Source: a virus. Taken from it: 32,286 bases of DNA. The translations under genes and the position numbers were made by a program. How positions within the stretch are numbered: position 1 is the first letter of the stretch; each line of letters begins with the position of its first letter. The DNA lies in IMG/VR virus record IMGVR_UViG_3300047477_000206, positions 1-32,286 of that record; one strand, 5' to 3'. The notes beneath the pieces are model-generated. The model searched no databases. It worked only from the letters and a program-made list of their open reading frames with translations, and was not told where the DNA came from. Positions 2,452 to 28,805 of the stretch are shown in pieces.

Positions 2452-2480
2452 TTGACTTTTCCCGAAAAATGATTTATATT
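2452..2480 (+). promoter_or_regulatory. Sigma70-like early promoter
   Basis: TTGACT (2452-2457), a 17-base spacer and TATATT (2475-2480). It lies between the terminator ending at 2415 and the gene starting at 2526, with expected transcription start near 2487. Same -10 and spacing as the promoters at 3407, 27543 (minus) and 32253. Confidence 0.8.
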
Positions 2481-3406: not shown

Positions 3407-3435
3407 TTGACATCTCCATAGGAATTTCCTATATT
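3407..3435 (+). promoter_or_regulatory. Consensus sigma70 promoter
   Basis: TTGACA (3407-3412), exactly 17 bases, then TATATT (3430-3435), giving a start near 3442. The -35 is a perfect match and the -10 differs from TATAAT by one base. The spacer contains the palindrome GGAAATTCC-like string 'AGGAATTTCCT' (3420-3430), a possible operator. Confidence 0.85.
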
Positions 3436-11674: not shown

Positions 11675-11818
11675 TTACTCCTCAATCCAATACTGAATCA
11701 TTCCACGTTGATCGCACACAGGAACTAACTTCTTTTCTTTTACTTCTACGACAGTTTCAATGACAACATCGCCATCTTTCTGTGTATCTACAACTTCTAA
11801 ATTCTTCTTTTTTGCCAT
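11675..11818 (-). CDS. 47-aa hypothetical late protein
   Basis: The first gene after late element 1 and the coat-gene terminator. A basic N-terminus (MAKKKNLEVV) is followed by a strand-like VVIETVVEVKEKKLVPV and an acidic end (QYWIEE). It ends GAGGAGTAATAATG, supplying the ribosome binding site of the adaptor gene. Small ORFs like this often occur after the coat gene in phages (decoration or assembly factor), but nothing in it identifies a function. Confidence 0.6.
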   Translation of the reverse strand: MAKKKNLEVVDTQKDGDVVIETVVEVKEKKLVPVCDQRGMIQYWIEE

Positions 11819-11833: not shown

Positions 11834-11865
11834 GTATAGTTCCCCCTACTAATATGTTATGTGAG
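11834..11865 (-). promoter_or_regulatory. Late promoter-like element, copy 1 (upstream of connector genes)
   Basis: Read on the minus strand: CTCACATAACAT, six bases, AGGGGGAA, CTATAC. Its end is 15 bases from the start codon at 11818. Shared with 14125-14157 and 25774-25805. It follows directly after the coat-gene terminator, so a new transcript would begin here. Proposed phage-specific promoter; the exact start is unknown. Confidence 0.6.
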
Positions 11866-11871
11866 TACAAT

Positions 11872-11900
11872 AAAAAAGAGGCCAGATTGCTCCAGCCTCT
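11872..11900 (-). terminator. Intrinsic terminator after the coat protein gene
   Basis: On the minus strand AGAGGCTGGA and TCTGGCCTCT form a 10-bp stem (two G-U wobbles) with a GCAA tetraloop, followed by six Ts (11877-11872). It lies 22 bases after the coat stop codon and just before late element 1. Confidence 0.9.
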
Positions 11901-11922
11901 CATTTATGTTATATTATATAGA

Positions 11923-13122
11923 TTAGATCTTGAACATTGTTACGCCAAGACCCTTACCTAAGACGGTTTCTACACCGAATAGGCCGTCAAAGCGATACAT
12001 TTGTCCACCATTGGCAGAGTCAGAGAACTTGCCTAGACGTATAGATACTGAACCAGCCATCATAGATTCGGAGGCATTACCCTGCTCTTCATACTTAGGA
12101 AGTGGTTTAGCAGCATACACCATAACTTTTGGATCAATCACGACAGCATAGGCATAAGTACCAGCAGCCTGAGGAACCCAGTTGATTAGTGCGTTCTGTG
12201 CGATTGTGGTAGTTGATACGTTCTGACGAGGATCACTCTTTCCAGAACCAGCCTTGAAGTAAATAGGAGCAACTTTTACAGTAGCAACAGATCCAACAGC
12301 AGCAGCAGAATCTTGAGTGACGATAAAGGCACGTTGATTACCAGTATCTTCACCTAGCAAGTTGACAGAATTAACGCCAGTGATACCAAATATAGTACCT
12401 TTCTTTACAATACCAGTAGCGGAAACTAGACCATCTATGATGATTTCAGTAGCACCATTAGCGGTTACAGCAGTAGTCACCTTAGAGGTTCCAGCCACAG
12501 GAAGGTTGCTTATAACTAGAGCAGGCATATCACTGGAGGCATAGTAGTCAACCATGTCATAGTTACCAATGTCACCTTTATATAGTCTTTCACCTAGGGA
12601 CTGACCGAATAAGTTGATACCAGAGTTACGGACGGTATTCAAGAAATAGCTTGAACCGAAAGCAAACATGTCGTCGCCGAACTTGGTGTCACGGATCTTA
12701 GCATGTAAGTCACCTAACTGTGCGAAAGTACCAGTAGATACAGTAGCATGTTCAGCAGTAGCAAGAGCCTTGGCAATTACTTTCTTGTTGATGAAAGAAG
12801 CAATTGATACACCAGTAGGTTTACCAATCTGTCTGTCATATGATTCTATATCTAGAGCCTTTTCCATAGCACCTAGGGCCATCTTGGTATTCCACATACC
12901 TAGAGTAACATCTACATCCTTGATATTTAAATCTTCGGCAGTTGATGTAGCACCATCAGTGATTACTGGATAAGATACGACTTCTACACGTACAGTAGCA
13001 CCATCGCCTGATGCATAGTCGTTTGATAGGTCGTTCTTTAGCTTGTCTAGAACAGGGGTTTCAGCAGTTGCGAAAGCTGCGATGTTTATTAGTTTGTCAT
13101 TTGTTGCGATAGCATTAGCCAT
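11923..13122 (-). CDS. Major capsid (coat) protein, P22 gp5-like
   Basis: A 399-aa protein preceded by GAGGA. Position right after the scaffold gene, size (P22 gp5 is 430 aa) and pattern fit a P22-type HK97-fold coat: an N-terminal arm, the helical spine (KVIAKALATAEH), and a region with GTIFGITGVNSVNLL...AFIVTQD corresponding to the inserted domain that starts 'ISFAGV' in P22. Its codons are visibly more GC-rich and uniform than those of its neighbours, as expected for a very highly expressed gene. Several hundred copies would build the icosahedral head. Terminated by its own intrinsic terminator. Confidence 0.8.
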   Translation of the reverse strand: MANAIATNDKLINIAAFATAETPVLDKLKNDLSNDYASGDGATVRVEVVSYPVITDGATSTAEDLNIKDVDVTLGMWNTKMALGAMEKALDIESYDRQIGKPTGVSIASFINKKVIAKALATAEHATVSTGTFAQLGDLHAKIRDTKFGDDMFAFGSSYFLNTVRNSGINLFGQSLGERLYKGDIGNYDMVDYYASSDMPALVISNLPVAGTSKVTTAVTANGATEIIIDGLVSATGIVKKGTIFGITGVNSVNLLGEDTGNQRAFIVTQDSAAAVGSVATVKVAPIYFKAGSGKSDPRQNVSTTTIAQNALINWVPQAAGTYAYAVVIDPKVMVYAAKPLPKYEEQGNASESMMAGSVSIRLGKFSDSANGGQMYRFDGLFGVETVLGKGLGVTMFKI

Positions 13123-13158
13123 AATTATTATTCCTCGTCCTCATTGGGACATTTTTTG

Positions 13159-14067
13159 TTATTTTCTGCGAGTAGCAAATACTCGACTTAGTTTTTGTTC
13201 GAAACGAGACTTATTGTCAACTGGCTCACTCAACTTCTCGCTCTTAATAGGGGCGATTGAAGGTAGTGGTTTGTGACGTTTAGGGTCGTCAGATTTTGGT
13301 TCGTTGGAGACTTCTGGCTTTGCGACTTCTCGTTCAATATTTACTAACAAAAGTTGTTTCTTAGCTAAAGGCATATTGTCAAACTCTTCTTTAGCACCTG
13401 GAATACTTTCAAAACGATTTACTATCAAGTCTAACATTTTTATTCCAACTGGGGATTTAAATATGTAGTCCTTTGTAGTATCATCTTTATCAATATCATC
13501 CATGTACTTATTGACGAGCTGTTTATGCTTCTCGACATCTTTTACTTGACTTGCCATCTGCTCAAAGTATATTTCACGTTCCTCGTCTTCCTTAGCAGAT
13601 TTCTCTCGCTCGTATTCACGATTTAATGTTACTTCTTGTGCCTTTCTTTCTGACAAGTCCTGTATAAAATCCATATCGGAGTCATACTGATCACGGGTTT
13701 TAGAACCATTTATTTTTATTTTGTTAAGTTCTTTCTCTAGTTCAGCAATTCGACGCTCACGCTCACGATTTTTGCGTTCTAGACCCTTGATTTTTCCTTC
13801 TTCTTTAGTATATTTGAACTTACTATCACTGGAGCTTTCTTTTACAGGTTTAGTATCTTTCGTCTCCACTACTTGTTCTGGTTCTTCCCTTTTTGAATTA
13901 TCTATGGTCGTAGACTTTTCTACTTTAGTTGGTTCCTTTCCTCGTAGACTTGCTAACTTTTCCGCAAACTTATCTTGGTTTGATTTGACCGAATCAACTT
14001 GGGATTGTTCGGGACTCGTTGCAAGATTGATACTACCTTCATTACCGCTTTCTAACGTATCGGCCAT
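13159..14067 (-). CDS. Scaffolding protein
   Basis: ATG at 14067 was chosen for the AGAGGAAG site in front; the frame is open to 14091. The 302-aa product (P22 gp8 is 303 aa) is very charged and helical, with a Lys/Glu/Arg coiled coil around 95-140 (GLERKNRERERRIAELEKEL). It ends in a basic helix (SRFEQKLSRVFATRRK), the place where P22-type scaffolds bind coat protein. It lies between the portal and coat genes, the usual scaffold place. It guides procapsid assembly and then leaves. Confidence 0.75.
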   Translation of the reverse strand: MADTLESGNEGSINLATSPEQSQVDSVKSNQDKFAEKLASLRGKEPTKVEKSTTIDNSKREEPEQVVETKDTKPVKESSSDSKFKYTKEEGKIKGLERKNRERERRIAELEKELNKIKINGSKTRDQYDSDMDFIQDLSERKAQEVTLNREYEREKSAKEDEEREIYFEQMASQVKDVEKHKQLVNKYMDDIDKDDTTKDYIFKSPVGIKMLDLIVNRFESIPGAKEEFDNMPLAKKQLLLVNIEREVAKPEVSNEPKSDDPKRHKPLPSIAPIKSEKLSEPVDNKSRFEQKLSRVFATRRK

Positions 14068-14124
14068 CGTTTCTTCCTCTTTTGGAATCAATAATCATGG
14101 AACACCCATAATTTTCGGGAGAGT

Positions 14125-14157
14125 GTATAGCTCCCCCTCAATATTATGTTATGTGAG
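14125..14157 (-). promoter_or_regulatory. Late promoter-like element, copy 2 (upstream of scaffold and coat)
   Basis: Minus strand: CTCACATAACAT, seven bases, AGGGGGAG, CTATAC, then ACTCTCCCG. It sits between the portal stop (14177) and the scaffold start (14067). One base longer between the two conserved blocks than copies 1 and 3. Shares the downstream ACTC(TC)CCG with copy 3. Confidence 0.6.
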
Positions 14158-14176
14158 CTTATTACACCCACATATT

Positions 14177-16102
14177 TTAAGCTGTAAACTTGCTATTAGT
14201 GAACACAGGTACTTCAATAGACGCTGCGGCTTGTCTTGTACGCTCTCTATCTTTTTCCAAATCAGCTAACATTTCACGTGCTGCAATTTCACTCTCCAAT
14301 TGTCTATCTTTTTCTTTTTCAACGGCATCGAATGTTAATTTACCAGCCTTGGCTTGCAACTCTAACATAAATTTCTCACGCTCCCATTGTAGATCCATAA
14401 CATGTTTACGTTCATCAGCAGCTATTTTTTGTTGTGTTTCCCACATAGATGCTTTCGAGTCCGTTTGCATCTCGAATAGACTTTGTTGCAACATATTAAT
14501 TTGTTTGTTTGCTTCAGTTTGTAGAGTTTCCAATTGCTGACTCAACACCTGAACTTGCTGATCTTTCTGAGCCATTGCTTGTTGCATTGCTGGATCTACT
14601 ACAGGTTGCTGTGCCTGTCCCAATTGCTGAATAATTATTTGTTTATCTTCCTGTGGCATATCCAAGTTCTTGATAATTACAGGAATGATCTTGCTTGTTG
14701 GATTGCTTGCCAATAGACGATCAACTGCCATCAACTGGGCCACTGTCTTGCTATTCTGACTGGCAATTACAGGGCCACTATCCACGACAACTACATAACT
14801 ACTAATATCATTCACTGCCTGTAGCATCTGATTATTATAATTACGTTCTATATCAAATAGTGTTGGTAGCCATTGTAGTATAACTTCACCAATTGCCTCT
14901 AGACCTTCGCATAATGACTTAATATATCTATTAGCAGTAGCTTCACTAATACTTTTACGTAGTAATACACTTACTTCAGTTTCATTCTTAGGTGGTTCCC
15001 CAGTTGGCGCACCTAGTATGCTTGTCACCATCTGGGTCATTGTCTGTACACCAGTTACTAGATCCCCATTATCCTTATCTACAGGGAATGGTTGAGGTAC
15101 AGGAAGTGCCATACCAGTTTCATCTACAGCGTTATATTTCACATATGCTTTAGGTTGTTTATTTATGTTATTCCAATCATCCTCATTACCAGCAATAACA
15201 CGAGCATCCAACATCATCTTCGCAGTAGGGGCAGCAGCTACACGTTCAGCATGTAAACTCATCTGGTAGTTAATTACACGCAATAGGTCGAACACGAACC
15301 AATATGCACCACGATAATGCCACTGATCTGTTGTAGGCATATAAACTTTTTCACCAGCTATTCTAACTATTGGCAATCTTCTCATACCCGAAATCAACAC
15401 AGGCTCATCGATCTCTATACCATGACATAATTTACTTACTTGCACACCACCTTCAACAACTTCATACACAGTTGCTACAGTAGTATAATTAGTAGTATCA
15501 CTAACAAAATTATATTGAGTAAAAGGATCACTCTCATTTCGCATTCTGAACTTATTTATACCAAATTGTGATTCAGCTTTAGTTTTCTTTATCACTGACA
15601 CATATATTGCCATATCACAATCAGCACCAGTTGGATCATCACAGTCATCCATAAAGGTTCTGTTACTGTCTAACATGCTTGGGTGTGGGTATTGTGATTG
15701 GGTTTCTGGATCATCAGTTTCATTTATTGTTAGTACATATGCATATCCATCGTTCAATACCGATTCTAATATGTTGCACGCAAGGTCTGTAAAATCACAT
15801 TTATCTTGCACATAATCTAGTATTGCAGCCATTTCAGGGGCGGCCATACCATTGCTATGTCTTACACCGATACCAAAGGGATTAGCAGTATAACTTGATA
15901 TTACTGTATTTATCCAAGGGCGAAGTACGTTAGCAACAATTTTAGCTCTTTCCTTGCCACGGAAAGTATCGTCTTCTTCTGTGAAAGCAAAACCACTAGA
16001 TAATGATCTACTTTGCTTCAAGTCATCACGATCTCTCTGAATGACTGGGTTTTTTCTGTCCAAAAAGTCCTTAACTCTTTGTAATAATGTTATGTCTTCC
16101 AT
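14177..16102 (-). CDS. Portal protein, P22 gp1-like
   Basis: ATG at 16102 has AGGAAA at 16112-16107; upstream open frame inside TerL is not needed. The 641-aa product has the usual portal features. The N-terminal part includes DRDDLKQSRSLSSGFAF and FRGKERAKIVANVLRPWI. A central region carries WHYRGAYWFVFDLLRVINYQMSLHAERVAA. A long Gln/Glu/Lys-rich C-terminal helix (about 510-620) corresponds to the barrel of P22 portal. Twelve copies form the ring through which DNA enters and leaves. Lies between terL and the scaffold gene as expected. Confidence 0.8.
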   Translation of the reverse strand: MEDITLLQRVKDFLDRKNPVIQRDRDDLKQSRSLSSGFAFTEEDDTFRGKERAKIVANVLRPWINTVISSYTANPFGIGVRHSNGMAAPEMAAILDYVQDKCDFTDLACNILESVLNDGYAYVLTINETDDPETQSQYPHPSMLDSNRTFMDDCDDPTGADCDMAIYVSVIKKTKAESQFGINKFRMRNESDPFTQYNFVSDTTNYTTVATVYEVVEGGVQVSKLCHGIEIDEPVLISGMRRLPIVRIAGEKVYMPTTDQWHYRGAYWFVFDLLRVINYQMSLHAERVAAAPTAKMMLDARVIAGNEDDWNNINKQPKAYVKYNAVDETGMALPVPQPFPVDKDNGDLVTGVQTMTQMVTSILGAPTGEPPKNETEVSVLLRKSISEATANRYIKSLCEGLEAIGEVILQWLPTLFDIERNYNNQMLQAVNDISSYVVVVDSGPVIASQNSKTVAQLMAVDRLLASNPTSKIIPVIIKNLDMPQEDKQIIIQQLGQAQQPVVDPAMQQAMAQKDQQVQVLSQQLETLQTEANKQINMLQQSLFEMQTDSKASMWETQQKIAADERKHVMDLQWEREKFMLELQAKAGKLTFDAVEKEKDRQLESEIAAREMLADLEKDRERTRQAAASIEVPVFTNSKFTA

Positions 16103-16103
16103 A

Positions 16104-17381
16104 TTATTTCCTATTTGGGTAATTGTATTGTTGTGGAACATTTATTTTGCTTAGTTTTTCAATTGTTTCCATGTCCAAACTAGCACCAAGACAAATTGCA
16201 TCCAGCATATCTGGAGAACGACCAATCTTGGATTTTATTTCTGCTTTAGGTATCAACTTGAAATCTCTATTATTGTTAATACCATATTCTGTCGCATAAA
16301 ATTCTTTTTCTATTTGTTTAACTATCTTTTCATCGATGGTAGAACTAATTGTCCATCCTTGATTAATCTTCTTTTTCAAGTCGAAGTAAATTTCATCACG
16401 TCTAACTGAATAACCTTTTTTGTTAGCCTTGGCACCGAAATTAACACCAATTACTTTAGCGTCTTTCCATACTTTCTGGAATTCAGCAGGTGCGAATGTA
16501 CCAATACCTGTGCTGTCAATGAGGATATAATTTGGGGAGAGTCCACCCAATGATACACGACATAGATCAATGAGAGTAGCAATGTCAGTAGTAGTTTTCT
16601 TAGCAACCACATTAACTAGCTGATTACCCCTATATACAGCAGATGCACTATCATCACCACCAGCGGCTACATCCACACCTACTATTATCTGATTACCCAT
16701 TCCATTCATCTTTCGTGTGAACATCTTCCATTCACTGTCTAGGAATACATTATTCTGGTCATTGTCTATGAAATCGCCCTCTAATTCCTGTTTAGCGAAA
16801 TCACCATCACCTAACAATCTAATTTGTTCTTCTGCATAATTCTCGCCTAATGATTTGTTATCTGAGGATTTAGCATGTATATATGTTGTATCATATTCGT
16901 TCATACAGGCTTCGTAAAACCAATTACCTTTACCTAATGGAGTCCCTATAAGATATATTTTAGGGTTTCTAACATGCTCACCACGTAGACATAGAACAGC
17001 AACCTTATAAATCTCATATTTTACTGATGCGGCCTCGTCAATCAACAACCATGACAAGCTCTTTCCTCTTATACCTCGGTCAGTTTCTGCTGATCTGTAG
17101 TAGCAAATAGCATTTTTGGTTTTTATAAAATGTTTTGATTGATTGTGTTCATACTTTGTTTTAGATTTATCTAAGAATTCAATAACATAAGGTATCATTA
17201 CAGATGACAAATCATCAAAAATCGGAGCTATAATTAATCCACTACGACCATTTCGCAATTCTTGTACAACTTTCCATGCTGCTATCAAACTTTTTCCAGC
17301 ACCACGCCCTGCGCACAAGCAAGTAACTTTTGTCCCTGAAGTAACAAATTTATATTGGTGTGGAAATAACTCAATCTTCAT
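16104..17381 (-). CDS. terL: Terminase large subunit (ATPase and nuclease)
   Basis: A 425-aa protein. Walker A AGRGAGKS at residues 24-31, Walker B LLIDE with D115-E116, and a C-terminal RNase H-like nuclease with GVDVAAGGDDSA (about 240-251), IDSTGIG and SPDMLDA acidic motifs. It pumps DNA into the procapsid and cuts it. It overlaps the gene at 17371-17952 by 11 bases, with GGAG upstream of its ATG, and is followed two bases later by the portal gene. The Pfam Terminase_6-like layout is clear; whether packaging is headful or site-specific cannot be read from it. Confidence 0.92.
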   Translation of the reverse strand: MKIELFPHQYKFVTSGTKVTCLCAGRGAGKSLIAAWKVVQELRNGRSGLIIAPIFDDLSSVMIPYVIEFLDKSKTKYEHNQSKHFIKTKNAICYYRSAETDRGIRGKSLSWLLIDEAASVKYEIYKVAVLCLRGEHVRNPKIYLIGTPLGKGNWFYEACMNEYDTTYIHAKSSDNKSLGENYAEEQIRLLGDGDFAKQELEGDFIDNDQNNVFLDSEWKMFTRKMNGMGNQIIVGVDVAAGGDDSASAVYRGNQLVNVVAKKTTTDIATLIDLCRVSLGGLSPNYILIDSTGIGTFAPAEFQKVWKDAKVIGVNFGAKANKKGYSVRRDEIYFDLKKKINQGWTISSTIDEKIVKQIEKEFYATEYGINNNRDFKLIPKAEIKSKIGRSPDMLDAICLGASLDMETIEKLSKINVPQQYNYPNRK

Positions 17382-17952
17382 CGTCTAACCGATCTCCAAA
17401 ATCCCATTCAAAATCAAACTTATTCATAACATATTTTTCAATGCCTTCATCATCAGTGAGTAAGTCATGCCTTACACAATCCGTTGACATCTCTAAATTC
17501 TTGCGTAGCTGATTATATTTGTGCCTCTTATTATTGTCCACATTAGCATATAATTTGTAACAAACATGCGATTTTATCCTGTTAAATAGACCTAGTATGG
17601 AATAAACAGGGTTAATTGTTTTCTCGCTCAACTTAACAGTATAAAATTTGCTTATTGTAGTTATGATTTCTGTGTGGATCATTTCGGCACACATTCCGCT
17701 TATATTATTGTCATGTTGCTTTATCCACATTGAATATACATACATTAGAATGTGTGACAGTTTCCTAGTTACTTTATTGTCTACTTGTGATGCTTTCCAC
17801 TCTGATTTAACCATGTCGAAGTCTAAATCAACCATGCCATTATTTAGTTTAGCCCCATCACCTATCAAATTAACCCATTGTCGTGCATAATATCTATGCA
17901 TTGGGCCGTATAATTCACTTAATCGTTCACTTGGAATACTTAAATCACTCAT
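17371..17952 (-). CDS. Unknown 193-aa protein at the usual terS position
   Basis: Overlaps terL by 11 bases and follows a promoter and small palindrome. The sequence is helical, with FDMVKSEWKASQVDNKVTRKLSHILMYVYSMW, a Lys-rich FNRIKSHVCYKLYANVDNNKRHKYNQLRK (about 122-150) and a very acidic tail (FDFEWDFGDRLDDED). Position suggests a small terminase subunit, and the acidic tail could contact TerL. However, no clear HTH is visible, and the protein at 10627-10989 looks more like TerS. Function therefore open. Confidence 0.6.
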   Translation of the reverse strand: MSDLSIPSERLSELYGPMHRYYARQWVNLIGDGAKLNNGMVDLDFDMVKSEWKASQVDNKVTRKLSHILMYVYSMWIKQHDNNISGMCAEMIHTEIITTISKFYTVKLSEKTINPVYSILGLFNRIKSHVCYKLYANVDNNKRHKYNQLRKNLEMSTDCVRHDLLTDDEGIEKYVMNKFDFEWDFGDRLDDED

Positions 17953-17956
17953 CTTG

Positions 17957-17968
17957 TACCGTTCGGTA
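17957..17968 (-). promoter_or_regulatory. Short inverted repeat at the 5' end of the packaging operon
   Basis: TACCG-TT-CGGTA, a perfect 5-bp inverted repeat located at the predicted transcription start and a few bases upstream of the start codon at 17952. Could be an operator or a 5' hairpin. Confidence 0.4.
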
Positions 17969-17973
17969 TACTT

Positions 17974-18002
17974 ACTATATAATATAGATCATTTTTTGTC
18001 AT
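17974..18002 (-). promoter_or_regulatory. Sigma70-like promoter for the packaging genes
   Basis: On the minus strand: ATGACA (18002-17997), 17-base spacer, TATAGT (17979-17974), inside the last codons of the endolysin gene. Predicted start near 17967, 15 bases before the start codon at 17952. Confidence 0.5.
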
Positions 18003-18387
18003 TAATATAAAGTATTTGTTGTCTATTTTTATTTATGTTATAACTTAAATGCACCCAAGCTCCATTGTTCTCCAGTAAAAGCTGGTCAAATGTGATACCT
18101 GATTTACATATAAAATCAAACAACTCTTTATTTTGTTCTGTTGTACCGATATCTAAATCAGCAGCTTGACCCTTAGTATGCTGGCTAGTTGCAACACCAC
18201 CAACTTTATCATTAACAGCCTTGCATCGAAAGCCACTTGTAACAATTATTGGCTTACCCCAGTCTTCACGTATTGGGTCTAACACATTATTTACTAACGC
18301 CTTCAGGTTTTCAACAGCTTGCCACGATGGGATATTTGTTATTCCAGTTTTAGTAGCACACAATTCTTCCAGTGTGAAATATTTCAT
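17989..18387 (-). CDS. Endolysin: peptidase M15-type (D,D/L,D-carboxypeptidase fold)
   Basis: A 132-aa protein of the Peptidase_M15_3 type. Zinc ligands are visible in the S-x-H-x2-G-x-A-x-D motif (S68, H70, G73, D77) and in WVHLSY (H113). SGFRC precedes them, as in the family. These enzymes cut peptide cross-links in peptidoglycan at the end of infection. No signal peptide, so it would need a holin; the membrane protein at 19299-19622 is the candidate. Its start overlaps the stop of the HNH gene (ATGA). Confidence 0.85.
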   Translation of the reverse strand: MKYFTLEELCATKTGITNIPSWQAVENLKALVNNVLDPIREDWGKPIIVTSGFRCKAVNDKVGGVATSQHTKGQAADLDIGTTEQNKELFDFICKSGITFDQLLLENNGAWVHLSYNINKNRQQILYINDKK

Positions 18388-18818
18388 TTTTTTCTCTGTG
18401 ATTTTGGATTACCTAATTTTCTATGTTCTGTATACTTATCATAATTACACCCATTTTTACCCATATGATGTTTAGCATTCTCAGACCTAGTGACCCATTC
18501 TAAATTTTCAACCCTATTATCATCATGAATATTATTAATATGATTTACTTCAGGTTTATTATCATGATTTGATATGAATAACTCAGCCACCATTCTATGG
18601 ATGTATATACGGTGTGGTTTACCATTAATCATTTGGCTTACAGCTTTATAATTTGACTTATATCCTGTACTCACTATACTAGCTGGCTCGTCAACATATT
18701 TATACCGCATTTTACCTTTTGGATCAGTTCCCCAATTTAATCTTCCTTTTTTCCAAACTTCACCGTTTTCATTTACATAGAAGCAAGTATTTTTATATTG
18801 TTTGTATGAATTATCCAT
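18384..18818 (-). CDS. HNH homing endonuclease, free-standing in the lysis region
   Basis: ATG at 18818 follows GAGGA (18827-18823); the frame is open further upstream to 18926, inside the DUF1353 gene, but without support. The 144-aa product has an N-terminal part like plant AP2/NUMOD-type DNA-recognition repeats (CFYVNENGEVWKKG) and an HNH core. The core reads HRMVAELFI (H74), EVNHINN (N92, H93), DNRVENLEW (N101, N105) and ENAKH (H117). Such enzymes nick or cut DNA to spread themselves. It is not inside a visible intron; it sits between the DUF1353 and endolysin genes. Confidence 0.88.
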   Translation of the reverse strand: MDNSYKQYKNTCFYVNENGEVWKKGRLNWGTDPKGKMRYKYVDEPASIVSTGYKSNYKAVSQMINGKPHRIYIHRMVAELFISNHDNKPEVNHINNIHDDNRVENLEWVTRSENAKHHMGKNGCNYDKYTEHRKLGNPKSQRKK

Positions 18819-18852
18819 TATTTCCTCTTGGTTAGTACATGAGTAATATAGG

Positions 18853-19302
18853 TTATTTATCATAGTGTCTGTAGTGAATTTTTGTAATATTTGGGTATTC
18901 TCTATCAGTAATAGTTGGTAATCCAAAATGATCTTTACCGAACAAACTTACTGCATTATAAATCAGTCTTGATCTAAACCAACCATATCCACATTGTCTA
19001 AGCATTGAATATAATAATTCATTAGCTTCATCAAATGTGAAACCTATATCATAGTAAAGGAGATCATGACATAAAAATGCCTTCATTTCCTCCTGACTAC
19101 CTAAATTGGGAGCAATGCCTAATGCGTCAATCCAAGCAGAACCTGATCTACCATCAAACATGAATCCATCATCCACCATTATGTGAATGCGTCCACAATC
19201 TGTAATGTAGTCTACTGTCCATGCACCCTGAACCTCGTACCATCTATCGGCAAGAGGTTTCAAAGTAATATCACGGCTAAATTCTACTTTAAGTACCTTC
19301 AT
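18853..19302 (-). CDS. DUF1353 family protein
   Basis: A 149-aa protein with the family's signature: DGFMFDGRSGSAW, followed by LGIAPN, FLCHDLLYYD and EANELLYSMLRQCG...R-IYNAVSLFG--HF. DUF1353 proteins are common in phages, often close to lysis or tail genes, and have no proven function; the conserved His/Asp (CHDLLYYD) suggest a hydrolase-like site. It overlaps the membrane protein upstream by ATGA, which supports co-expression with lysis genes. Confidence 0.85.
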   Translation of the reverse strand: MKVLKVEFSRDITLKPLADRWYEVQGAWTVDYITDCGRIHIMVDDGFMFDGRSGSAWIDALGIAPNLGSQEEMKAFLCHDLLYYDIGFTFDEANELLYSMLRQCGYGWFRSRLIYNAVSLFGKDHFGLPTITDREYPNITKIHYRHYDK

Positions 19303-19622
19303 CTTTCATTCTTTCCTGACATGTACAATAATGTCTTGATATCCCGTTGTATATCAACCAATGATGCCTTTACTTCTATATTAGTATTCTCTACATTAGT
19401 TATACGCATGTTATGCTTTTCAATGTCATTCTGCAATACGTTAATAATGCTGTCACGAGTTCTATTTTCAGCCATTATATCAGCATCAATATTGTCATTA
19501 GTTAAATAAGTGGCACCAGTTGTGCCCCCGATTAAAATACCGATAAGGGCCAGAGCTTTCAAAAAGCCAGCGAATTTTGCTAATGTGGTTTTAATTTGTA
19601 ACTCTGGTTCTTTTCGTGTCAT
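19299..19622 (-). CDS. Single-pass membrane protein with coiled coil (holin or i-spanin candidate)
   Basis: A 107-aa protein with GAGGAATAATAA before its ATG. A basic, cytoplasmic N-terminus (to about residue 20) precedes one transmembrane segment (about 21-40, LKALALIGILIGGTTGATYL). A long charged helix with heptads follows (IINVLQNDIEKHNMRITNVE; VKASLVDIQRDIKTLL). This topology (N-in, coiled coil outside) matches i-spanins such as Rz as well as some holins. Location just upstream of DUF1353, HNH and endolysin puts it in the lysis cassette. No lipoprotein o-spanin was found overlapping it. Confidence 0.6.
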   Translation of the reverse strand: MTRKEPELQIKTTLAKFAGFLKALALIGILIGGTTGATYLTNDNIDADIMAENRTRDSIINVLQNDIEKHNMRITNVENTNIEVKASLVDIQRDIKTLLYMSGKNER

Positions 19623-19633
19623 TTATTATTCCT

Positions 19634-20083
19634 CTAGATTATATGGTCTGCTGATGTACAGGCTTGAGCAAATTTACTCTTACATTCTGCTGTTATTATG
19701 TTAGTATATGGAATTGTGTTAGCTATCAAATAGGATGCCTCGCTTAACATACCAGCAAGTAATGCACATTCAATCAAATAAAACGACTGGAGCAAATCTA
19801 CTCCATTTCCAGATATACCTAGTTCAGCATTCTTGCGATATACCCACTCACGAAATTTCGCAAGTATCGACCTGCCCAATTCCATGTTTCGGATAATCTG
19901 ATCACCCATGTTATTCACAATCGAATCCCTATTTCGGTTATTATCTGCCTCATCTACAGCAACATACCTGACAACATCATTGCCAAAAATATCCTTGATT
20001 ACGGGTGTTGGATAAGAAGGCACGGTGAATGCCTTCCCGAAAACTACTTCAGTTTTATTATTATGAGTTATACTATATACCAT
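19634..20083 (-). CDS. Hypothetical 149-aa protein downstream of the fibre gene
   Basis: GGAGAG precedes its ATG; it starts 10 bases after the fibre stop. The N-terminal half is beta-like (EVVFGKAFTVPSYPTP), the C-terminal half helical with a moderately hydrophobic stretch (SFYLIECALLAGMLSEASYLIA, about 105-126) that may be buried rather than membrane-spanning. In some phages a fibre is followed by its chaperone, but this one has no recognisable chaperone domain. Function unknown. Confidence 0.6.
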   Translation of the reverse strand: MVYSITHNNKTEVVFGKAFTVPSYPTPVIKDIFGNDVVRYVAVDEADNNRNRDSIVNNMGDQIIRNMELGRSILAKFREWVYRKNAELGISGNGVDLLQSFYLIECALLAGMLSEASYLIANTIPYTNIITAECKSKFAQACTSADHII

Positions 20084-20093
20084 ATTACTCTCC

Positions 20094-23000
20094 TTATGAC
20101 TCAGTTGAAGCCATGAATACGCATGGCACTTTTACCTGAATGAAACCACCGCCTGTGGAGTCCCAGAAGTTAGGACTCCAATCAGCACCACTGCTTGTTG
20201 ATCTTATGGATACGGCATATCGTAAAGCATTGGTTCCAGGGTCGAACCCAGACGCTGCCTTGTTATACGAAATCAGTTGCATACCACGGCATACGATACC
20301 TATCCAGTATTCACCGTTGCGTTCCAATGTTAAATTTTGGTTAGGGCATGGAGTCATGGTTAACGTATTAGTACCTAGCGTGTTTAAGCCACGTGTCCAT
20401 GCCGTCATGCCTTTGCACACACCATCTAGAGTAAATAAACCTATACGTATAGCACCATAATTTCCAGGTCCAATGCCGTTATCAACATCGTTATAAGCAC
20501 TAACGTAGAACTTCACTTTGTTAATTGTACCACGACCGATTGTTGATACTCTGTAATAAGCATCGGATGTATTCTGCCCAAAACCAGTACCCCATTCACC
20601 ATCGGCATATGTACTTGAATAAGCATTACCTGTGAATCCCATCGTTCCATTTTCACTCATTAAGCCAATGGTTTGGATAAGAGGGTCTGTAATGTCGCTT
20701 TCAATGGCATCAAGTACTAATGTATCACCAACAACATTTACTGTAATTGGCGAATTAACAGCAGCAGTAATCTTATCCCCTAAATAACTTGGAGTAGTAT
20801 CATCAGCATCCACTTTTACAGTATATGTATCTGCACCACCACCTCCACCACCATTTACAGGAGTCCAAATGCTTCCATTGAATCCGAGCACTTGACCACT
20901 AATTGCGCCAGCCACATCTACATCAGGTATCGCATCTAAATTTTCTACCGTACCTGCTGGGCCTTGTGGGCCTTGAATGCCGTCAATACCTGCATCGCCT
21001 TTAGTACCAACACACATAAAACCATGTACTTCGTATTTAATGTCAGCGACATAACTACCAGCACTATATGTTAGTGTGATATAGTCACCAACAGCCATAT
21101 CAATGAGATAAGTCTTGCAACTAGATTCATTTGTATACTCAGAGAATGCATATTTATGGTCGTAGTAATTCTTTACAGCACCTGAAGAACTATATTGAGT
21201 AACAAATGTATTAACCTGTGCTATAGGGAAGTTGTACTGATTACCACTAAGTAGAGCACCACTTAAAGTAATATTTTTTACATAAGATCCAGACATAATA
21301 TCTGTATTATTAGCACCATCACCACGTACTCTAAGTTCCACACTAAAATAGTCGGATTCCTCACAATCAATTACAAATGACTTTGATAATTGTCTATACT
21401 GGGCTAGAGATGGTTCCTGATAATTTAAGTTAGTCCAGTCACCTTCATCCACCGGATAATTTGTCTTTAATGTCCCTAAAGAATTATAATGTTTAAGGTA
21501 TAATGTTACACCACCATTACCATTCTGCTTAGAATATAGATTACAACCTAAATTAACCAGTTGTTTACCAGCAACTTCTACGACACGTCTAGTATATCCA
21601 GACCAATAAGGCTGAGAACTATAGCCAGTAGATTTGGATTGATATTCTGTCCAAGTACCAAATTGGTTAGAACCAAATTTAACTAATGGATTATTTTCAC
21701 CAATGATGTATACCTGTGTACCTGTTGTACCAGAATAACAATCTTCAGAGTAGTCAAAATTACCAAAATTGCTAGTAGCTTTTAAGTTAGTAGAAAGCAA
21801 TAGCTTACCAAGTGGTAGATTCTGAATCTTATGGTTGGGGGCATCTATAAATTGGCTACCAAACATTACTTGGTCAATAGCCACATAACCTGAATTATTA
21901 GCATTGTTGTAGTTCGACTTGAAAAAGAATGTTGATGACTCAGCAAGATCAGAAGATATTTCTAATGTAGCACCATTGTCTGTAATAGCTATACCATTAC
22001 CTGCACTCAACTTGTTAATTAAGTAGTCCTTGGTATCAGCACCATCAATCTTTACTTTACCATCACCAGCATCAACTATTGCATCAGCAAGGTCAGCGAC
22101 ATCGCCTATTTCAATAGGGTCGCTTGCATTCATATAATGCCCATAGTCATCGAATTTAGGCAAGCCAGTAGCCGTAAACATTGGCGAAGTCTGGCCCTCC
22201 ATTTGTGCTATGGATTTATGGTCTATTGCAATTTCTGTACCAACATATGCAGGATTTGTCCACACGCCTTCACGGAATTTTATATTGTGTGACAATTCAT
22301 CAATAGTTCTTGATGCATTTGTAGTAGTCACATTAAATACTTGCTGACCGCTTACGGTTATATAATCACCACCAGCATCAACGGTACGTGTAAAAACAAT
22401 ACCATCACCAGCTTTAATTTTGTCTAATAGGAAACTTGTAGTAGAATCCGCAGCATCCAACTTAACCATCTGGTCGCCCAATTGGTCAATGGAGAACATA
22501 ATTACCCAGCCAGTACCAACGGCATATGGATTTACGCCAGTAGTTGTGGCAGTAGCAACATAATATCTATTAATGATTGGCGATACGCTGTCGTCATAAT
22601 ACCAAACACCGTCACCCTCACTATATGTTACGGCAATATCCCACGCCCCCCTTGGAGTAAACCCAGAACCGCCAATACCAGCACCTGACAAAATAATTTT
22701 GTTAAAGTCTGCGCTTGTAGATACAGTTATACCGCTTGTACCCTCAATAATCATGTTCAGGAAGTCTTTAACAGTTGAATATTGGCTTGCTTGGGTCTTA
22801 AATGTTTCTGGTGCAGTGTTCTCTAAAGTAATTTTGTTATTTGTATTTGATAAACCAAGACCAGTTCCAGTTACTTCAATCTTTTCATCTAAATAGCCTA
22901 ATGTGTCTAACCCAGTAGTTTTAACCTGACCGATACCAGCAGGCATTATATCACCAGCCTCTATCCAGTTATTTGGATCATCACTTTTATTATATATGAC

Positions 23001-23447
23001 ACGGCCAGTTGACGAAGTTTCATCTACTCGAATGTTCAATAATGAAATACCATCAGCACCATCTGCACCGTCTGCTCCGTTAGTACCATTTGTACCATTG
23101 CTTCCAGAGGCACCAGTTGCACCAGTTGCACCAGTATCGCCTGTTCTACCTTGTGGGCCTTGTGGGCCAGCAGTTCCAGCACCACCACCTATAACTGACA
23201 CATTCATGCGAGTTAATTTTGTTGTACCTAAGAAATCAATCACCTTAATATCATAAAGTGTTTCAGTATCTACTATGAAAGCATCACAATATCCCAATGA
23301 ATTGATATTCACAGGGTTTGTTATTTCATCACCAGAAACTGGATCGTATATTTCAGCTAAGTTAGTGCCACCAGCAAGATATACATATACCTTTCCATTT
23401 TTGCAGTCAGTATTTAGCTGAACAATTTGTAAATATCCTCTTGACAT
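20094..23447 (-). CDS. Collagen-like tail fibre / receptor-binding protein (1117 aa)
   Basis: AGAGGA precedes the ATG. Residues about 15-85 form an adaptor like the P22 tailspike head-binding domain (GKVYVYLAGGTNLAEIYDP...NPVNINSLGY...DIKVIDFLGTTKL). A collagen-like stretch of G-x-y triplets follows at about 91-133 (GPQGPQGRTGDTGATG, then NGADGADGADG), and a second at about 814-834 (GDAGIDGIQGPQGPAG). A carbohydrate-binding-like W-x-Y-x-GD-V-x-Y domain lies near 262-320 (RGAWDIAVTYSEGDGVWYY). The C-terminal 250 residues are beta-rich and probably bind the receptor. Trimeric fibre at the tail. Confidence 0.8.
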   Translation of the reverse strand: MSRGYLQIVQLNTDCKNGKVYVYLAGGTNLAEIYDPVSGDEITNPVNINSLGYCDAFIVDTETLYDIKVIDFLGTTKLTRMNVSVIGGGAGTAGPQGPQGRTGDTGATGATGASGSNGTNGTNGADGADGADGISLLNIRVDETSSTGRVIYNKSDDPNNWIEAGDIMPAGIGQVKTTGLDTLGYLDEKIEVTGTGLGLSNTNNKITLENTAPETFKTQASQYSTVKDFLNMIIEGTSGITVSTSADFNKIILSGAGIGGSGFTPRGAWDIAVTYSEGDGVWYYDDSVSPIINRYYVATATTTGVNPYAVGTGWVIMFSIDQLGDQMVKLDAADSTTSFLLDKIKAGDGIVFTRTVDAGGDYITVSGQQVFNVTTTNASRTIDELSHNIKFREGVWTNPAYVGTEIAIDHKSIAQMEGQTSPMFTATGLPKFDDYGHYMNASDPIEIGDVADLADAIVDAGDGKVKIDGADTKDYLINKLSAGNGIAITDNGATLEISSDLAESSTFFFKSNYNNANNSGYVAIDQVMFGSQFIDAPNHKIQNLPLGKLLLSTNLKATSNFGNFDYSEDCYSGTTGTQVYIIGENNPLVKFGSNQFGTWTEYQSKSTGYSSQPYWSGYTRRVVEVAGKQLVNLGCNLYSKQNGNGGVTLYLKHYNSLGTLKTNYPVDEGDWTNLNYQEPSLAQYRQLSKSFVIDCEESDYFSVELRVRGDGANNTDIMSGSYVKNITLSGALLSGNQYNFPIAQVNTFVTQYSSSGAVKNYYDHKYAFSEYTNESSCKTYLIDMAVGDYITLTYSAGSYVADIKYEVHGFMCVGTKGDAGIDGIQGPQGPAGTVENLDAIPDVDVAGAISGQVLGFNGSIWTPVNGGGGGGADTYTVKVDADDTTPSYLGDKITAAVNSPITVNVVGDTLVLDAIESDITDPLIQTIGLMSENGTMGFTGNAYSSTYADGEWGTGFGQNTSDAYYRVSTIGRGTINKVKFYVSAYNDVDNGIGPGNYGAIRIGLFTLDGVCKGMTAWTRGLNTLGTNTLTMTPCPNQNLTLERNGEYWIGIVCRGMQLISYNKAASGFDPGTNALRYAVSIRSTSSGADWSPNFWDSTGGGFIQVKVPCVFMASTES

Positions 23448-23456
23448 TAAATCCTC

Positions 23457-25748
23457 TTATTTGTATAACTGAAATTGTATTGTGCAGTCATCTCCTGCTG
23501 CAACACCACCAGCAATATTTTGTATAAACTGAACATATATTGTGGCAGCAGATCCGAACATTGCCCAATAATTTGGGTAAGTTTCATCGAAGGTGGGTGC
23601 AGCTACGAAAGGCTTAGTTATACCCACCACAGTAGCTACAGAACCATTTTCTATTTTTGTTATGTTTGAGGCATGTGTAGGGAAGTAGAATATCGAACTA
23701 GAATTAACCCAGAATCTATGATTAAATGACACTGTGTTATTTACCTTGCCATCCACGAACCCATAAGTTCTCTTTGTGTATGTTCCTTCGTTGTCACCTA
23801 TACGCACATTGTAGTGACCATTTACTGCCCATTTCTTTGTTGAGCCAGATATTGAATTTATGTTGTTTACTAAATTTAATATGCGTTGTATAGTTACGTT
23901 ATATGCAACAGCCTCTCCAGTCAGTGTCATTATTGATGCATCAAAATCAATACCTGATGCAGAACCACCTACCCAACTAACATTACAAAATTCCTTGGAT
24001 ACATTAGGCTTAAATGTTGCCTTGCCACCAACGAACACATCGGTTAATCTAAATGCACCACTGCCAGATATTGCGCCATTAGGAATATTTACTTCGTTCC
24101 ATACACCATAAGAACAATTTACAGTTCCTGTGCCACCAATAGTAACATTATTCAAGTTAGACGAAACTATACCAGGAACATTTCCAGTTATTGTGCTATA
24201 TTTTGCTATTAAATCAGCACCAAGAACGTCACCATTGACCGTAACATTTTCTAGTTCGCAATTAACTGTTACACCATCAACTGTTCCATTGTATATCTTT
24301 CCATATTTTGTTATGTTGTCAGTAGCAACCTTGCCACCCATATCCAATATACCTGTAGCATTAGCAGATGCATTCCAAGAACGAACCATTCCATTTGGTG
24401 AATTAAAATATCTGTGATCAATTGTGTTATAGCCAACATCAATACCATAATTAGCAATGATGAAATTTGGTTTGCCACCGTATCCACCACGTAATTTACA
24501 GGAAGCATTAATGTTATTTAATGTTCCTAGACCGCTTGCTTCAACATATGCAGTAATATCAGCACCTGTATGCAATGTAACTGGTGTCTTTAAATATATA
24601 ATTTCGTTAGTATTCACCATGCAATAACTTAATCTATCATTGATGAATGAAGAATCAAGTTCAGCAAATTTCCATGTATCATTGGACTGTGGGAAATTAA
24701 TTGTTCCCCATCCTTCTATATGGTCAACTGTGACGTAACTTCCAGGCATAACATATTGACTTGCTGTATATCCGTTGATTATACTTACAGCACTGAAGGC
24801 GCAAGTTGATTCCCATCTATAACTCTTTCCAGTTTCATTGAAGAAAATGTGAAATGTTGCAGTACCATGACCATATCCACGACAATTTGTGTTATTAAAT
24901 GCAGTAATTGGCACTATTGTATTTTCCCAACCAGTTCCACATATTGTTAACTTGACACTTACACCAGCCAATTTCCCACGAATTTTTGTATATGGATTAT
25001 ATAAATTCCATTTGTACCAGTTAGCCTCAACTGGGTCTAGTGCAGTACCTCGATTAAATATTACATCCTCATCTACATCTAGTGCTGCATATCCATCATA
25101 TGTACCAGATGCTGCATAGTTATATGTTCCACTAGATATATATACAACTTTCCCATTATCATTGGCCCAAGTCTGTACGGCTCTCATCTGGCTATTTACA
25201 TCCGCAATACCAGCTATAACACCGAATACTCTTGCATCTACCTTTTCGCCATTCAATTGCAATAGCCAACGCCCAGTAGGCATCACACCACTCTGAATTA
25301 CGGTACCGCCATTGTCAGTAAGTACACTTGATGCAACATATATATACTCACGTACATAACAATCGCCTACACTATAATATCCCTTGACGGCAACCAATGC
25401 CCCATCGACTGGTTCTAAGGCTCTCAAATCTTCTATGGTATCAACTACTGCATAACTTCCAGTAGATGTTCCTGACCCTGCGTTTGAGGCGAATTCATCA
25501 TATACCTTTACATCGTTACCCATGAAGTCACGTACATGTACAGTCACGGATTCATTAGCGTATATTTGTGGTGTAGTCCAACCAGCACTTGATAAAGTAA
25601 AGGGGTTCGATGCTGGTATAGTAAAATCATTATCCGAAAAAATATCGGCTAGATCAGTAGTTGCATATTTGTACACCAGTAGAGAACCAGCAGCTAGGCG
25701 AACTCCCTCTGCGCTAAAATGGGTCGTTTTTTGATCAAATATCTGCAT
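23457..25748 (-). CDS. Tailspike-like protein with pectate-lyase-type beta-helix (763 aa)
   Basis: The first gene after late element 3, with AAGG before ATG. Residues about 15-85 (LAAGSLLVYKYATTDLADIFSD, then ASNPFTLSSAG...VTVHVRDFMGNDVK) resemble the adaptor domain of the fibre gene and the P22 gp9 head-binding domain. About 155-230 contain the start of a pectate-lyase superfamily fold (DARVFGVIAGIADVNSQMRA...GKVVYISSGTYNY). Then follow regular short repeats (NITKYGKIYNGTVDGVTVNC) of a parallel beta-helix. Such spikes bind or cut surface polysaccharide. The active residues cannot be identified from sequence alone. Together with the fibre, the phage would carry two receptor-binding proteins. 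Confidence 0.8.
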   Translation of the reverse strand: MQIFDQKTTHFSAEGVRLAAGSLLVYKYATTDLADIFSDNDFTIPASNPFTLSSAGWTTPQIYANESVTVHVRDFMGNDVKVYDEFASNAGSGTSTGSYAVVDTIEDLRALEPVDGALVAVKGYYSVGDCYVREYIYVASSVLTDNGGTVIQSGVMPTGRWLLQLNGEKVDARVFGVIAGIADVNSQMRAVQTWANDNGKVVYISSGTYNYAASGTYDGYAALDVDEDVIFNRGTALDPVEANWYKWNLYNPYTKIRGKLAGVSVKLTICGTGWENTIVPITAFNNTNCRGYGHGTATFHIFFNETGKSYRWESTCAFSAVSIINGYTASQYVMPGSYVTVDHIEGWGTINFPQSNDTWKFAELDSSFINDRLSYCMVNTNEIIYLKTPVTLHTGADITAYVEASGLGTLNNINASCKLRGGYGGKPNFIIANYGIDVGYNTIDHRYFNSPNGMVRSWNASANATGILDMGGKVATDNITKYGKIYNGTVDGVTVNCELENVTVNGDVLGADLIAKYSTITGNVPGIVSSNLNNVTIGGTGTVNCSYGVWNEVNIPNGAISGSGAFRLTDVFVGGKATFKPNVSKEFCNVSWVGGSASGIDFDASIMTLTGEAVAYNVTIQRILNLVNNINSISGSTKKWAVNGHYNVRIGDNEGTYTKRTYGFVDGKVNNTVSFNHRFWVNSSSIFYFPTHASNITKIENGSVATVVGITKPFVAAPTFDETYPNYWAMFGSAATIYVQFIQNIAGGVAAGDDCTIQFQLYK

Positions 25749-25773
25749 TTTCTACCTTAAAATTGTCGGGAGT

Positions 25774-25805
25774 GTATAGTTCCCCCTACCAGAATGTTAT
25801 GTGAG
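25774..25805 (-). promoter_or_regulatory. Late promoter-like element, copy 3 (upstream of tailspike)
   Basis: Minus strand: CTCACATAACAT, six bases, AGGGGGAA, CTATAC, then ACTCCCG. It ends 25 bases before the tailspike start codon and directly follows the terminator at 25810-25846, the same arrangement as copy 1. Confidence 0.6.
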
Positions 25806-25809
25806 TACG

Positions 25810-25846
25810 AAAAAACCCAGCGAGCATCACTATGCAGCACTGGGTT
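25810..25846 (-). terminator. Intrinsic terminator downstream of the 114-aa gene
   Basis: Minus strand: AACCCAG (25846-25840) pairs with CTGGGTT (25820-25814); inside it GCAT and ATGC pair around an AGTG loop. A T-run follows (25815-25810). It separates the regulatory genes from the late tailspike operon. Confidence 0.8.
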
Positions 25847-25876
25847 CAAGGAGAACTATGAATGAAAAATCTATCA

Positions 25877-27514: not shown

Positions 27515-27543
27515 AATATAGTAAATAAATCAGCGAATGTCAA
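27515..27543 (-). promoter_or_regulatory. Consensus sigma70 promoter for rha
   Basis: Minus strand TTGACA (27543-27538), 17-base spacer, TATATT (27520-27515). It begins five bases after the stop of the sigma-like gene. Predicted start near 27508, about 90 bases before the rha ATG. Confidence 0.85.
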
Positions 27544-27547: not shown

Positions 27548-28069
27548 CTATTTATACTCCAGCAACAATTGCCTTATCTTCCACACCTGCGTCCTATATT
27601 CCCTCGGAACTTCTGTGCCATCGACAACAAATCTTTTGAAATATGGCACGGCTTGCTTCTCTGCCTTAGATAATTTATTATATATGTCATCGATGTAACT
27701 TAACCAACGTGCAGTCTCTTTATCCTCGGCATCATAAGCCTCGTTCTCGTCCTCGATCATGTCCAGTAGGGTCAATGTATCATCATCATTAGAAACGGGC
27801 TGAGAGAGGCTGGAAACAGGAAATAAATCGGTATCCTGCTTCATACGTGGGACATGCACCAAGTTTGAGTTGTAGGTTAGATAATCTTTTAACCACCCGA
27901 TCAGGGATGTCCTATAATATGTGCTAAAATTGCTGTACTCTGGTTGATAATGCTCTTTACAATGGAGATAACATAAATATGTTTCGGCACGGAGTTCGTC
28001 TATGTTACCACCGAAGTATTTATTGATTACCCATAAGCCCAGTTTTTCTATGTCAGTCCATTCCATCAT
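27548..28069 (-). CDS. Sigma-factor-like protein (sigma70 regions 2-3)
   Basis: ATG at 28069 (or 28066) follows GAGG at 28079-28076. The 173-aa product shows NIDELRAETYLCYLHCKEHYQ then FSTYYRTSLIGWLKDYL (residues 22-64), which matches sigma70 region 2 (DLxxEAYLxLLxAxxxF...FSTYAxxxIRxxIxDYL). It continues with VHVPRMK and SLSQPVSNDDDTLTLLDMIEDEN (like region 3: 'hxIP...LS-D-P--D-D--LxDhIxD'). The C-terminal part (LSKAEKQAVPYF...YRTQVWKIRQLL) is a short, weak region 4. It would bring host RNA polymerase to phage promoters. It overlaps the RusA-like gene by 17 bases. Its likely targets are the three late elements. Confidence 0.7.
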   Translation of the reverse strand: MMEWTDIEKLGLWVINKYFGGNIDELRAETYLCYLHCKEHYQPEYSNFSTYYRTSLIGWLKDYLTYNSNLVHVPRMKQDTDLFPVSSLSQPVSNDDDTLTLLDMIEDENEAYDAEDKETARWLSYIDDIYNKLSKAEKQAVPYFKRFVVDGTEVPREYRTQVWKIRQLLLEYK

Positions 28070-28499
28070 TGATAACCTCAACATCATCTTTAGTCAATTG
28101 AACCCAGCATTCCTCATCTCCACTTTCACTAGGGCCAAGGTATACACAACGTGATTCTACTATATATGCATAACTATCGTCTGGTATTGGCGTAACTTGT
28201 ACAAGGACATCTTCCACCCACTTTAATAACAAAGAAAAATTACTTATATCAAACCGCTTGCTACTCTTACCTTTATAAAATCCAATTGATAATCTATACT
28301 TAGATTCATTAACATGCGGAAATTGATTTCTGCTATATGCTTGATGTATAGTATGTTTTGTAGCATTAAGCCAAGCATGATGTGCATCATTGTATACTTG
28401 CCAACCACCTAATAGATAATTGTTACTTAATTTACGAATTGACTTTCCATGTTGAATTGAATGTGGAATACAAAGTTTTAATAGTAATTTCTGCTTCAT
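28053..28499 (-). CDS. RusA-like Holliday junction resolvase
   Basis: A 148-aa protein, the first minus-strand gene left of the divergent control region. The core RFDISNFSLLLKWVEDVLVQV...IPDDSYAYIVESRCVYL corresponds to the RusA pattern D-x-DN-x-K-x2-D-x-L...-DD-x2-V, with acidic residues D in FDISNF and DD in IPDDSY for metal binding. RusA cuts four-way DNA junctions during replication and recombination, useful before packaging. The usual 'DLDN' is altered to 'DISN', so activity is not certain. An N-terminal extension (about 60 residues) is basic. Confidence 0.6.
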   Translation of the reverse strand: MKQKLLLKLCIPHSIQHGKSIRKLSNNYLLGGWQVYNDAHHAWLNATKHTIHQAYSRNQFPHVNESKYRLSIGFYKGKSSKRFDISNFSLLLKWVEDVLVQVTPIPDDSYAYIVESRCVYLGPSESGDEECWVQLTKDDVEVINDGMD

Positions 28500-28620: not shown

Positions 28621-28685
28621 TTCAACATCAAAAGTCCCTTTTTAACTATATAGACTATAGTTATTACCGACCTTTTGATGTTGAA
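28621..28685. repeat. Nested inverted repeat (65 bp)
   Basis: Outer arms of 14 bp are perfect (28621-28634 and 28672-28685); allowing one bulged C, GTC/GAC extend the pairing inward. The inner arms TAACTATA (28643-28650) and TATAGTTA (28656-28663) are also perfect, with loop TAGAC. No T-run follows, so it is not a terminator. Confidence 0.9.
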
Positions 28686-28704: not shown

Positions 28705-28805
28705 TATAACATCTATAATTATATCATAACTAGGGATATTTAAATAGGAAAGTCAAAAATAAAAATTATTTTGTAATAAAAGTAAATAAATATGTTTTTT
28801 TGTAA

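Follow-up and report, generated by a model that had tools for sequence, protein, structure and literature searches.

A three-copy candidate late promoter without a -35 element in a P22-type phage genome and in its diverged relative

The late promoters of phage T4 (TATAAATA) are -10-type promoters that lack a -35 element and are read by the short phage sigma factor gp55. The late operon of phage P22 has a single late promoter and a Q-type antiterminator, and the transcript of T7 gene 10 starts with a G-run inside a 5'-terminal hairpin. The nearest precedent for the locus studied here is given by phiEco32, 7-11 and SU10, whose sigma-36 promoters, read by a phage sigma factor of the extracytoplasmic function (ECF) type, have the consensus tAATGTATAtA at 6-8 nucleotides (nt) upstream of the start (PMC4281155, PMC4331800). 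The phages akin to phiEco32 have three middle and three late promoters, of low copy number and strong conservation (PMC4331800, PMC4281155). Here we analyze an element that recurs three times ahead of late genes in the IMG/VR virus record IMGVR_UViG_3300047477_000206. The whole stretch of 32,286 nt (hereafter the window), from a short-tailed phage, carries P22-type head and tail genes (portal, coat, TerL and the tail closure Hc3), the portal matching Pfam P22_portal at 1.3e-31.

The element is composed of a first conserved block (box 1), a short spacer, and a second block with a G-run (box 2). All three copies are genuine and exact, and chance falls far short of explaining them. All lie on the minus strand in a single orientation, where the preliminary description had placed them, and each matches 25 of 25 specified bases, with spacers of 6, 7 and 6 bases in copies 1, 2 and 3. 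They are listed with their counterparts in a related genome, for which R coordinates refer to the reverse complement of its contig.

11834..11865, minus strand: putative late promoter, copy 1 (CTCACATAACATATTAGTAGGGGGAACTATAC, 11865-11834), exact match; box 1 at 11865-11854, -10-like TAACAT at 11859-11854, discriminator at 11853-11848; putative start A 11847; G-run and predicted leader hairpin at about 11845-11832 (fold -5.0 kcal/mol, not significant alone); counterpart R 6197
14125..14157, minus strand: putative late promoter, copy 2 (CTCACATAACATAATATTGAGGGGGAGCTATAC, 14157-14125), exact match; box 1 at 14157-14146, seven-base discriminator at 14145-14139; putative start A 14138; predicted leader hairpin at 14137-14117 (fold -11.2 kcal/mol); counterpart R 3885
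25774..25805, minus strand: putative late promoter, copy 3 (CTCACATAACATTCTGGTAGGGGGAACTATAC, 25805-25774), exact match; box 1 at 25805-25794, discriminator at 25793-25788; putative start A 25787; predicted leader hairpin at 25786-25768 (fold -6.3 kcal/mol, not significant alone); counterpart R 21637

Scanning the window with both boxes gave no fourth copy: the best non-overlapping other site reached 18/25, within the range of shuffles (17-19, n=20). The likeness of copies 1 and 3 reaches 68 nt at 78%. Elsewhere in IMG/VR the element was found only on L004, a contig that is 99.99% identical to the window and hence no independent witness. It is absent from the GTDB genomes, which showed zero motif matches and zero coat relatives, so that no host could be assigned. 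The next gene start is indeed 15, 57 and 25 bases away, as first given, the second value requiring the scaffold ATG at 14067. That the copies precede late gene blocks likewise holds, but the gene directly behind copy 1 is a 47-amino-acid (aa) open reading frame (ORF) and not the connector gene; the 228-aa connector-like gene (70% identity in the relative) comes only after it. The genes and terminators that define these surroundings are the following.

11675..11818, minus strand: 47-aa ORF, first gene behind copy 1, kept in the relative
11876..11901, minus strand: intrinsic terminator behind the coat gene and immediately ahead of copy 1; stem of 11 pairs and T-run (-20.1 kcal/mol, z -5.4); found at the same place in the relative
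11923..13122, minus strand: major coat protein gene (phrog_283, 1.1e-22; 83% identity to the relative's coat)
13159..14067, minus strand: scaffold gene, first behind copy 2, start ATG 14067; 41% identity to the relative's gene between portal and coat
23457..25748, minus strand: tailspike-like gene, first behind copy 3; 59% identity over 674 aa in the relative
25807..25847, minus strand: intrinsic terminator with T-run, directly upstream of copy 3 (-19.8 kcal/mol, z -4.0)

The late genes run leftward from 25.7 to 4.2 kb, and early genes flank the late block on both sides. In copies 1 and 3 a gap of only 4-8 bases separates the terminator T-run from the element, a feature that had escaped the preliminary description; copy 2 lies 19 bases past the portal stop codon, without a terminator. 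A gene block located right behind a terminator needs a fresh start of transcription, which is the strongest local argument for promoters. The position of copies 1 and 3 immediately behind terminators also makes the alternative raised at the outset, a packaging or RNA-processing site, less likely.

The decisive evidence came from a second genome, obtained with the Hc3 tail-closure protein as query, and with that query only. The relative (L018) is part of a 30,155-base contig whose ends repeat 141 bases, for which reason it is taken as a complete circular genome. Its identity to the window is 83% in the coat, 74% in Hc3, 66% in the portal and 59% in the tailspike. Queries of IMG/VR with the sigma-like (see below), coat, TerL and 1146-aa helicase-like proteins of the window returned at most the near-identical L004, the portal query gave one extra match that is weak and short (L017), and the distant Hc3 proteins, once aligned, proved too diverged to serve as a query. 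The relative carries exactly three copies of a diverged element, located as in the window before the tailspike, scaffold/coat and connector genes.

R 3885: relative's copy after the portal gene (CCCACATTATGATTTAATAGGGGGAGGTATATCC)
R 6197: relative's copy behind the terminator after the coat gene (CCAACATTATGATTTAATAAGGGCCATCATGCCC)
R 21637: relative's copy ahead of the tailspike gene, preceded by a T-run with a weaker hairpin (CCAACATTATGATTTAATAAGGGATGCTATGTCCC)

A matrix built from the window copies alone places R 3885 at the top of the relative, at 17.6 bits compared with 10.1 for the next-best place; the copies at R 6197 and R 21637 were recognized by their identity to that at R 3885. In both genomes, two of the three copies are located directly behind a terminator or a T-run. 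Conservation of the element in front of the same genes, proposed earlier as a check on its function, is thus found in a relative with 83% coat identity.

The distribution of host-type promoters points in the same direction. The motif TTGAC[AT]-17-TATATT occurs three times per genome in the window and in the relative, always in early regions and never before late genes. In the window these sites are as follows.

2452..2480, plus strand: host-type early promoter TTGACT-17-TATATT
3407..3435, plus strand: host-type early promoter TTGACA-17-TATATT
27515..27543, minus strand: host-type promoter TTGACA-17-TATATT, before a Rha-like gene

Because this motif is confined to the early regions, the early genes appear to use host sigma70 and the late genes the element. 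Taken with the conservation of the element at the same genes, this agrees with the earlier proposal of a phage-specific class of late promoters, and the element is very probably a late promoter.

Comparison of the six copies provides insights on which part of the element would be recognized. One gap of a single base, placed between box 1 and the G-run, suffices to align them with MAFFT; gap aside, the invariant positions are C..ACAT.A and TA.GGG. Box 1 is CTCACATAACAT in the window and CCAACATTATGAT in the relative, and it harbors a -10-like hexamer, TAACAT in the former (4/6 of sigma70) and TATGAT in the latter (5/6). No -35 hexamer TTGACA occurs at 16-18 bp on the minus strand at the three window sites, and the -35 position of copies 1 and 3 falls in or beside the terminator T-runs. 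The earlier statement that the element is unlike a host sigma70 promoter stands as regards the -35, whereas box 1 does hold a -10-like hexamer. We take box 1 for a -10-type element that lacks a -35, and the variable 6-7 bases that follow would fit a discriminator. The copies of the relative hardly differ in box 1 and the six bases behind it, while their sequence past GGG varies; the window copies differ in the discriminator and agree in the bases that follow it. After GGG, all six share a short hairpin that begins at the G-run and carries TAT or CAT in its loop. Compared with shuffled sequences, this hairpin is significant in the relative (p 0.002, 0.002 and 0.045) and in window copy 2 (p 0.023). 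Since the relative keeps box 1 and the next six bases while the sequence past GGG varies, box 2 is better read as a transcript start opening a small 5' hairpin than as a recognition box. The proposal of a promoter with two recognition boxes finds no support here, as past GGG the relative keeps only the hairpin and the TAT/CAT in its loop. A single recognized box with transcription starting at the G-run is the likely arrangement. A SigB-like reading with GGGGGA as the -10 was rejected, as the relative keeps GGG alone and the rest varies.

A candidate for the protein that reads box 1 is encoded in the window by an ORF that was absent from the preliminary description.

27548..28087, minus strand: short sigma-70-family protein, candidate reader; 179 aa, or 173 aa from ATG 28069

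The protein matches phrog_351 (2.6e-10), TIGR02937 (3.6e-6) and SigB/F/G (4.8e-5), all below the curated cut-offs. Its reversed and shuffled decoys gave zero matches, and the proven phiEco32 sigma, a yardstick for scores as weak as these, has a poorer value (4.1e-5) on the same model that gives 3.6e-6 for the window protein. In the sequence we discern region 2 (YSNFSTYYRTSLIGWLKDYL), the motif VHVPR, a region-3.2-like LLDMIEDEN and a shortened region 4; a region 4 degenerate in this way would be in keeping with the lack of a -35 in the promoter. We tentatively name this phage sigma-like protein as the best candidate reader in the window.

Altogether, we lean slightly toward a model of three late promoters, each with box 1 as its single recognized box, a start at the G-run and the phage sigma as reader. 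Box 1 (CTCACATAACAT) would act as an extended -10-type element that lacks a -35, with its end 6-7 bases ahead of the A preceding the G-run. Transcription would begin at the A/G of the G-run, and box 2 would constitute the first transcribed bases, forming a small 5'-terminal hairpin of presumed function. Copy 3 would drive the genes from tailspike through portal, copy 2 would give additional transcription of scaffold and coat as far as the terminator at 11901, and copy 1 would restart transcription past the coat terminator for the connector and ejection genes. With the early genes on host sigma70, the late switch would most likely be made by the sigma-like protein of 27548-28087, guiding host RNA polymerase to box 1.

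Several observations weigh against parts of this model. Among the three window copies box 2 is as well conserved as box 1, and copies 1 and 3 of the window have a hairpin that does not reach significance (p 0.15 and 0.22 versus shuffles); a formal covariation check of the hairpin found zero compensated pairs. The matrix of the window copies finds only one of the three copies of the relative unaided, the others ranking about 44th and 642nd. The structural model of the sigma-like protein, from a single sequence, is too poor to confirm the fold (predicted local distance difference test, pLDDT, 54; best Foldseek E 1.5). The relative, a complete genome, appears to lack the sigma-like gene, so the sigma protein cannot be what reads this promoter family in general. 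The sigma-protein search of the relative's record was empty, but had no positive control; its sequence at this place shows a homologue of the 148-aa neighbor of the sigma gene, then a short spacer, then the next conserved gene, and no sigma-like gene was detected. In the named distant relatives a sigma family search was also empty, but the same settings missed the window's own sigma gene. Either the element is read by a different factor in the relative, or even in the window the sigma protein does not read it.

In a rival explanation, host RNA polymerase would act with its own sigma70 at the -10-like hexamer, and the missing -35 would be made up for by a small activator of the phage that binds the adjacent upstream sequence CTCACA/CCAACA. 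This activator could be a conserved small early protein such as the ribbon-helix-helix ORF 3043-3210 or the 124-aa ORF 2526-2900. We regard this explanation as possible, though not as probable. It suits both genomes, including the one without a sigma gene, and the TATGAT of the relative has 5/6 of the consensus at the correct spacing to the G-run. Both genomes also share small early ORFs, among them the 124-aa protein (83%) and a ribbon-helix-helix protein with weak family matches. None of these is a known activator, however, the conserved block overlaps the -10 itself and is not around the -35, and both the sigma factor of the window phage and the drift of its hexamer from consensus are left unexplained. 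A combination of the two, which we judge rather unlikely, is that the reader was exchanged between the two phages, with a phage sigma in one and host sigma70 plus a small phage protein in the other; the promoter places and the start/hairpin layout would have been kept and the -10 core altered to match (TAACAT versus TATGAT).

The explanations without sigma factors fare worse. That the element is not a promoter, and acts as an RNA element (processing or translation control) or as a DNA site (packaging or replication) before late genes, is improbable, even though the hairpin is close to the gene starts, all copies share a single orientation and copy 2 has no terminator in front. In each genome, a terminator or T-run is no more than about a dozen bases away from where two of the three copies begin, and little upstream transcript should arrive there; conservation is strongest in a stretch that is unpaired and precedes the hairpin, no Rfam family matched, and nothing would require a packaging or replication site to be at gene starts. 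A promoter with its start at GGGGGA, read by a phage RNA polymerase of the single-subunit (T7) type, was rejected and must be considered exceedingly improbable. The GGG start and the conserved block about 17 bp upstream do resemble such promoters, but no recognizable polymerase gene is present in the window (probably nearly complete) or the relative (complete), and the distance from block to start is not fixed (6 versus 7 bases).

The small early ORFs common to the two genomes are the 124-aa ORF (83% identity), a 46-aa ORF (59%) and the ribbon-helix-helix ORF (37%). The first (2526-2900, plus strand) is as conserved as the coat protein and has no known family or phage match. Three small plus-strand ORFs (3043-3210, 3663-3809 and 1-163) have the look of ribbon-helix-helix, Arc-like proteins; that at 1-163 is cut by the left end of the window, and its promoter appears to sit at the right end. 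This right-end promoter and left-end gene fragment look like one unit that is intact in the relative, and the window record is thus probably nearly complete. The 46-aa ORF was considered as an anti-sigma factor (AsiA) and rejected, the match (E 0.094) not being repeated by the homologue of the relative.

Other regulatory features accompany the early genes. A second repeated element without a -35 (AACATATATTTCT) is found on the minus strand of the window at 28529, before the 148-aa and sigma genes, and at 26419, before a 56-aa gene; in the relative these two genes are likewise preceded by TATTATATGTAT, and this pair is possibly a middle promoter class. The leader of the Rha/KilAC-type antirepressor gene (27543-27420, minus strand) holds two palindromes besides its sigma70 promoter and, at 27463-27436, an intrinsic terminator, an attenuator-like arrangement ahead of the gene. 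Between divergent early genes, at 28621-28685, lies a 30-nt inverted repeat (80% complementary) with GAGTTATTTG repeats nearby, perhaps an operator or a replication origin. The 1146-aa P-loop protein (28792-32232, plus strand) is helicase- or primase-like without a family match; in its place the relative has separate genes for a 292-aa primase-like protein and a 636-aa primase/helicase (DUF5906). An HNH endonuclease ORF (18384-18926, minus strand) within the lysis region had no counterpart seen at the equivalent position of the relative, whose own HNH/NUMOD-like ORF lies in its early region (R 19431-19952).

The late-transcription plan of this phage can be read from its sequence, in a lineage whose named relatives are very distant (20-25% protein identity). 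It would consist of host promoters for the early genes, three phage-type promoters splitting the late genes, terminators between them and a candidate sigma factor. The window and the relative offer a testable case of a phage changing the reader of its late promoters; if true, the exchange would be a natural before-and-after of such a swap. The new -35-less promoter with its start-site hairpin is also suited to in vitro tests with few components.

Comparison with known systems situates the element among these. The nearest named phages have only about 20-25% identity in portal and Hc3, and in the named distant relatives VvAW1, P26218, DSL-LC05 and the Manatee Spring phages no comparable repeated intergenic element was seen. 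The gene order of portal, scaffold, coat, tail closure and ejection genes is that of a P22-type podovirus. Unlike P22, the window has three putative promoters with terminators between the units, and no match to the Q family was found among the proteins scanned, where small ORFs of no assigned family remain. The predicted start at a G-run within a 5'-terminal hairpin resembles the T7 gene 10 leader, whereas neither genome has a gene for a single-subunit RNA polymerase and the spacing is variable. With the T4 late promoters the element shares the -10-type, -35-less design and a short phage sigma (here a candidate), while the motif and the type of phage are different. The likeness to phiEco32 goes further: a phage-encoded sigma-family protein in the window genome, early genes that appear to be on host sigma70, as in phiEco32 (PMC4281155, PMC4331800), three conserved copies before the three late blocks only, seen here in two genomes, and one -10-like motif whose distance to the G-run, with the putative starts, fits 6-8 nt. 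The differences from phiEco32 are a G-run with a 5' hairpin at the start and a relative that keeps the promoters without the sigma gene. The window motif is CTCACATAACAT and not tAATGTATAtA, and the two sigma proteins have no detectable similarity (BLASTP E 3.2; phrog_351 versus phrog_1740), with the superfamily model alone in common. As both motif and sigma homology fail, the element is not a member of the phiEco32 type, though it seems to work alike.

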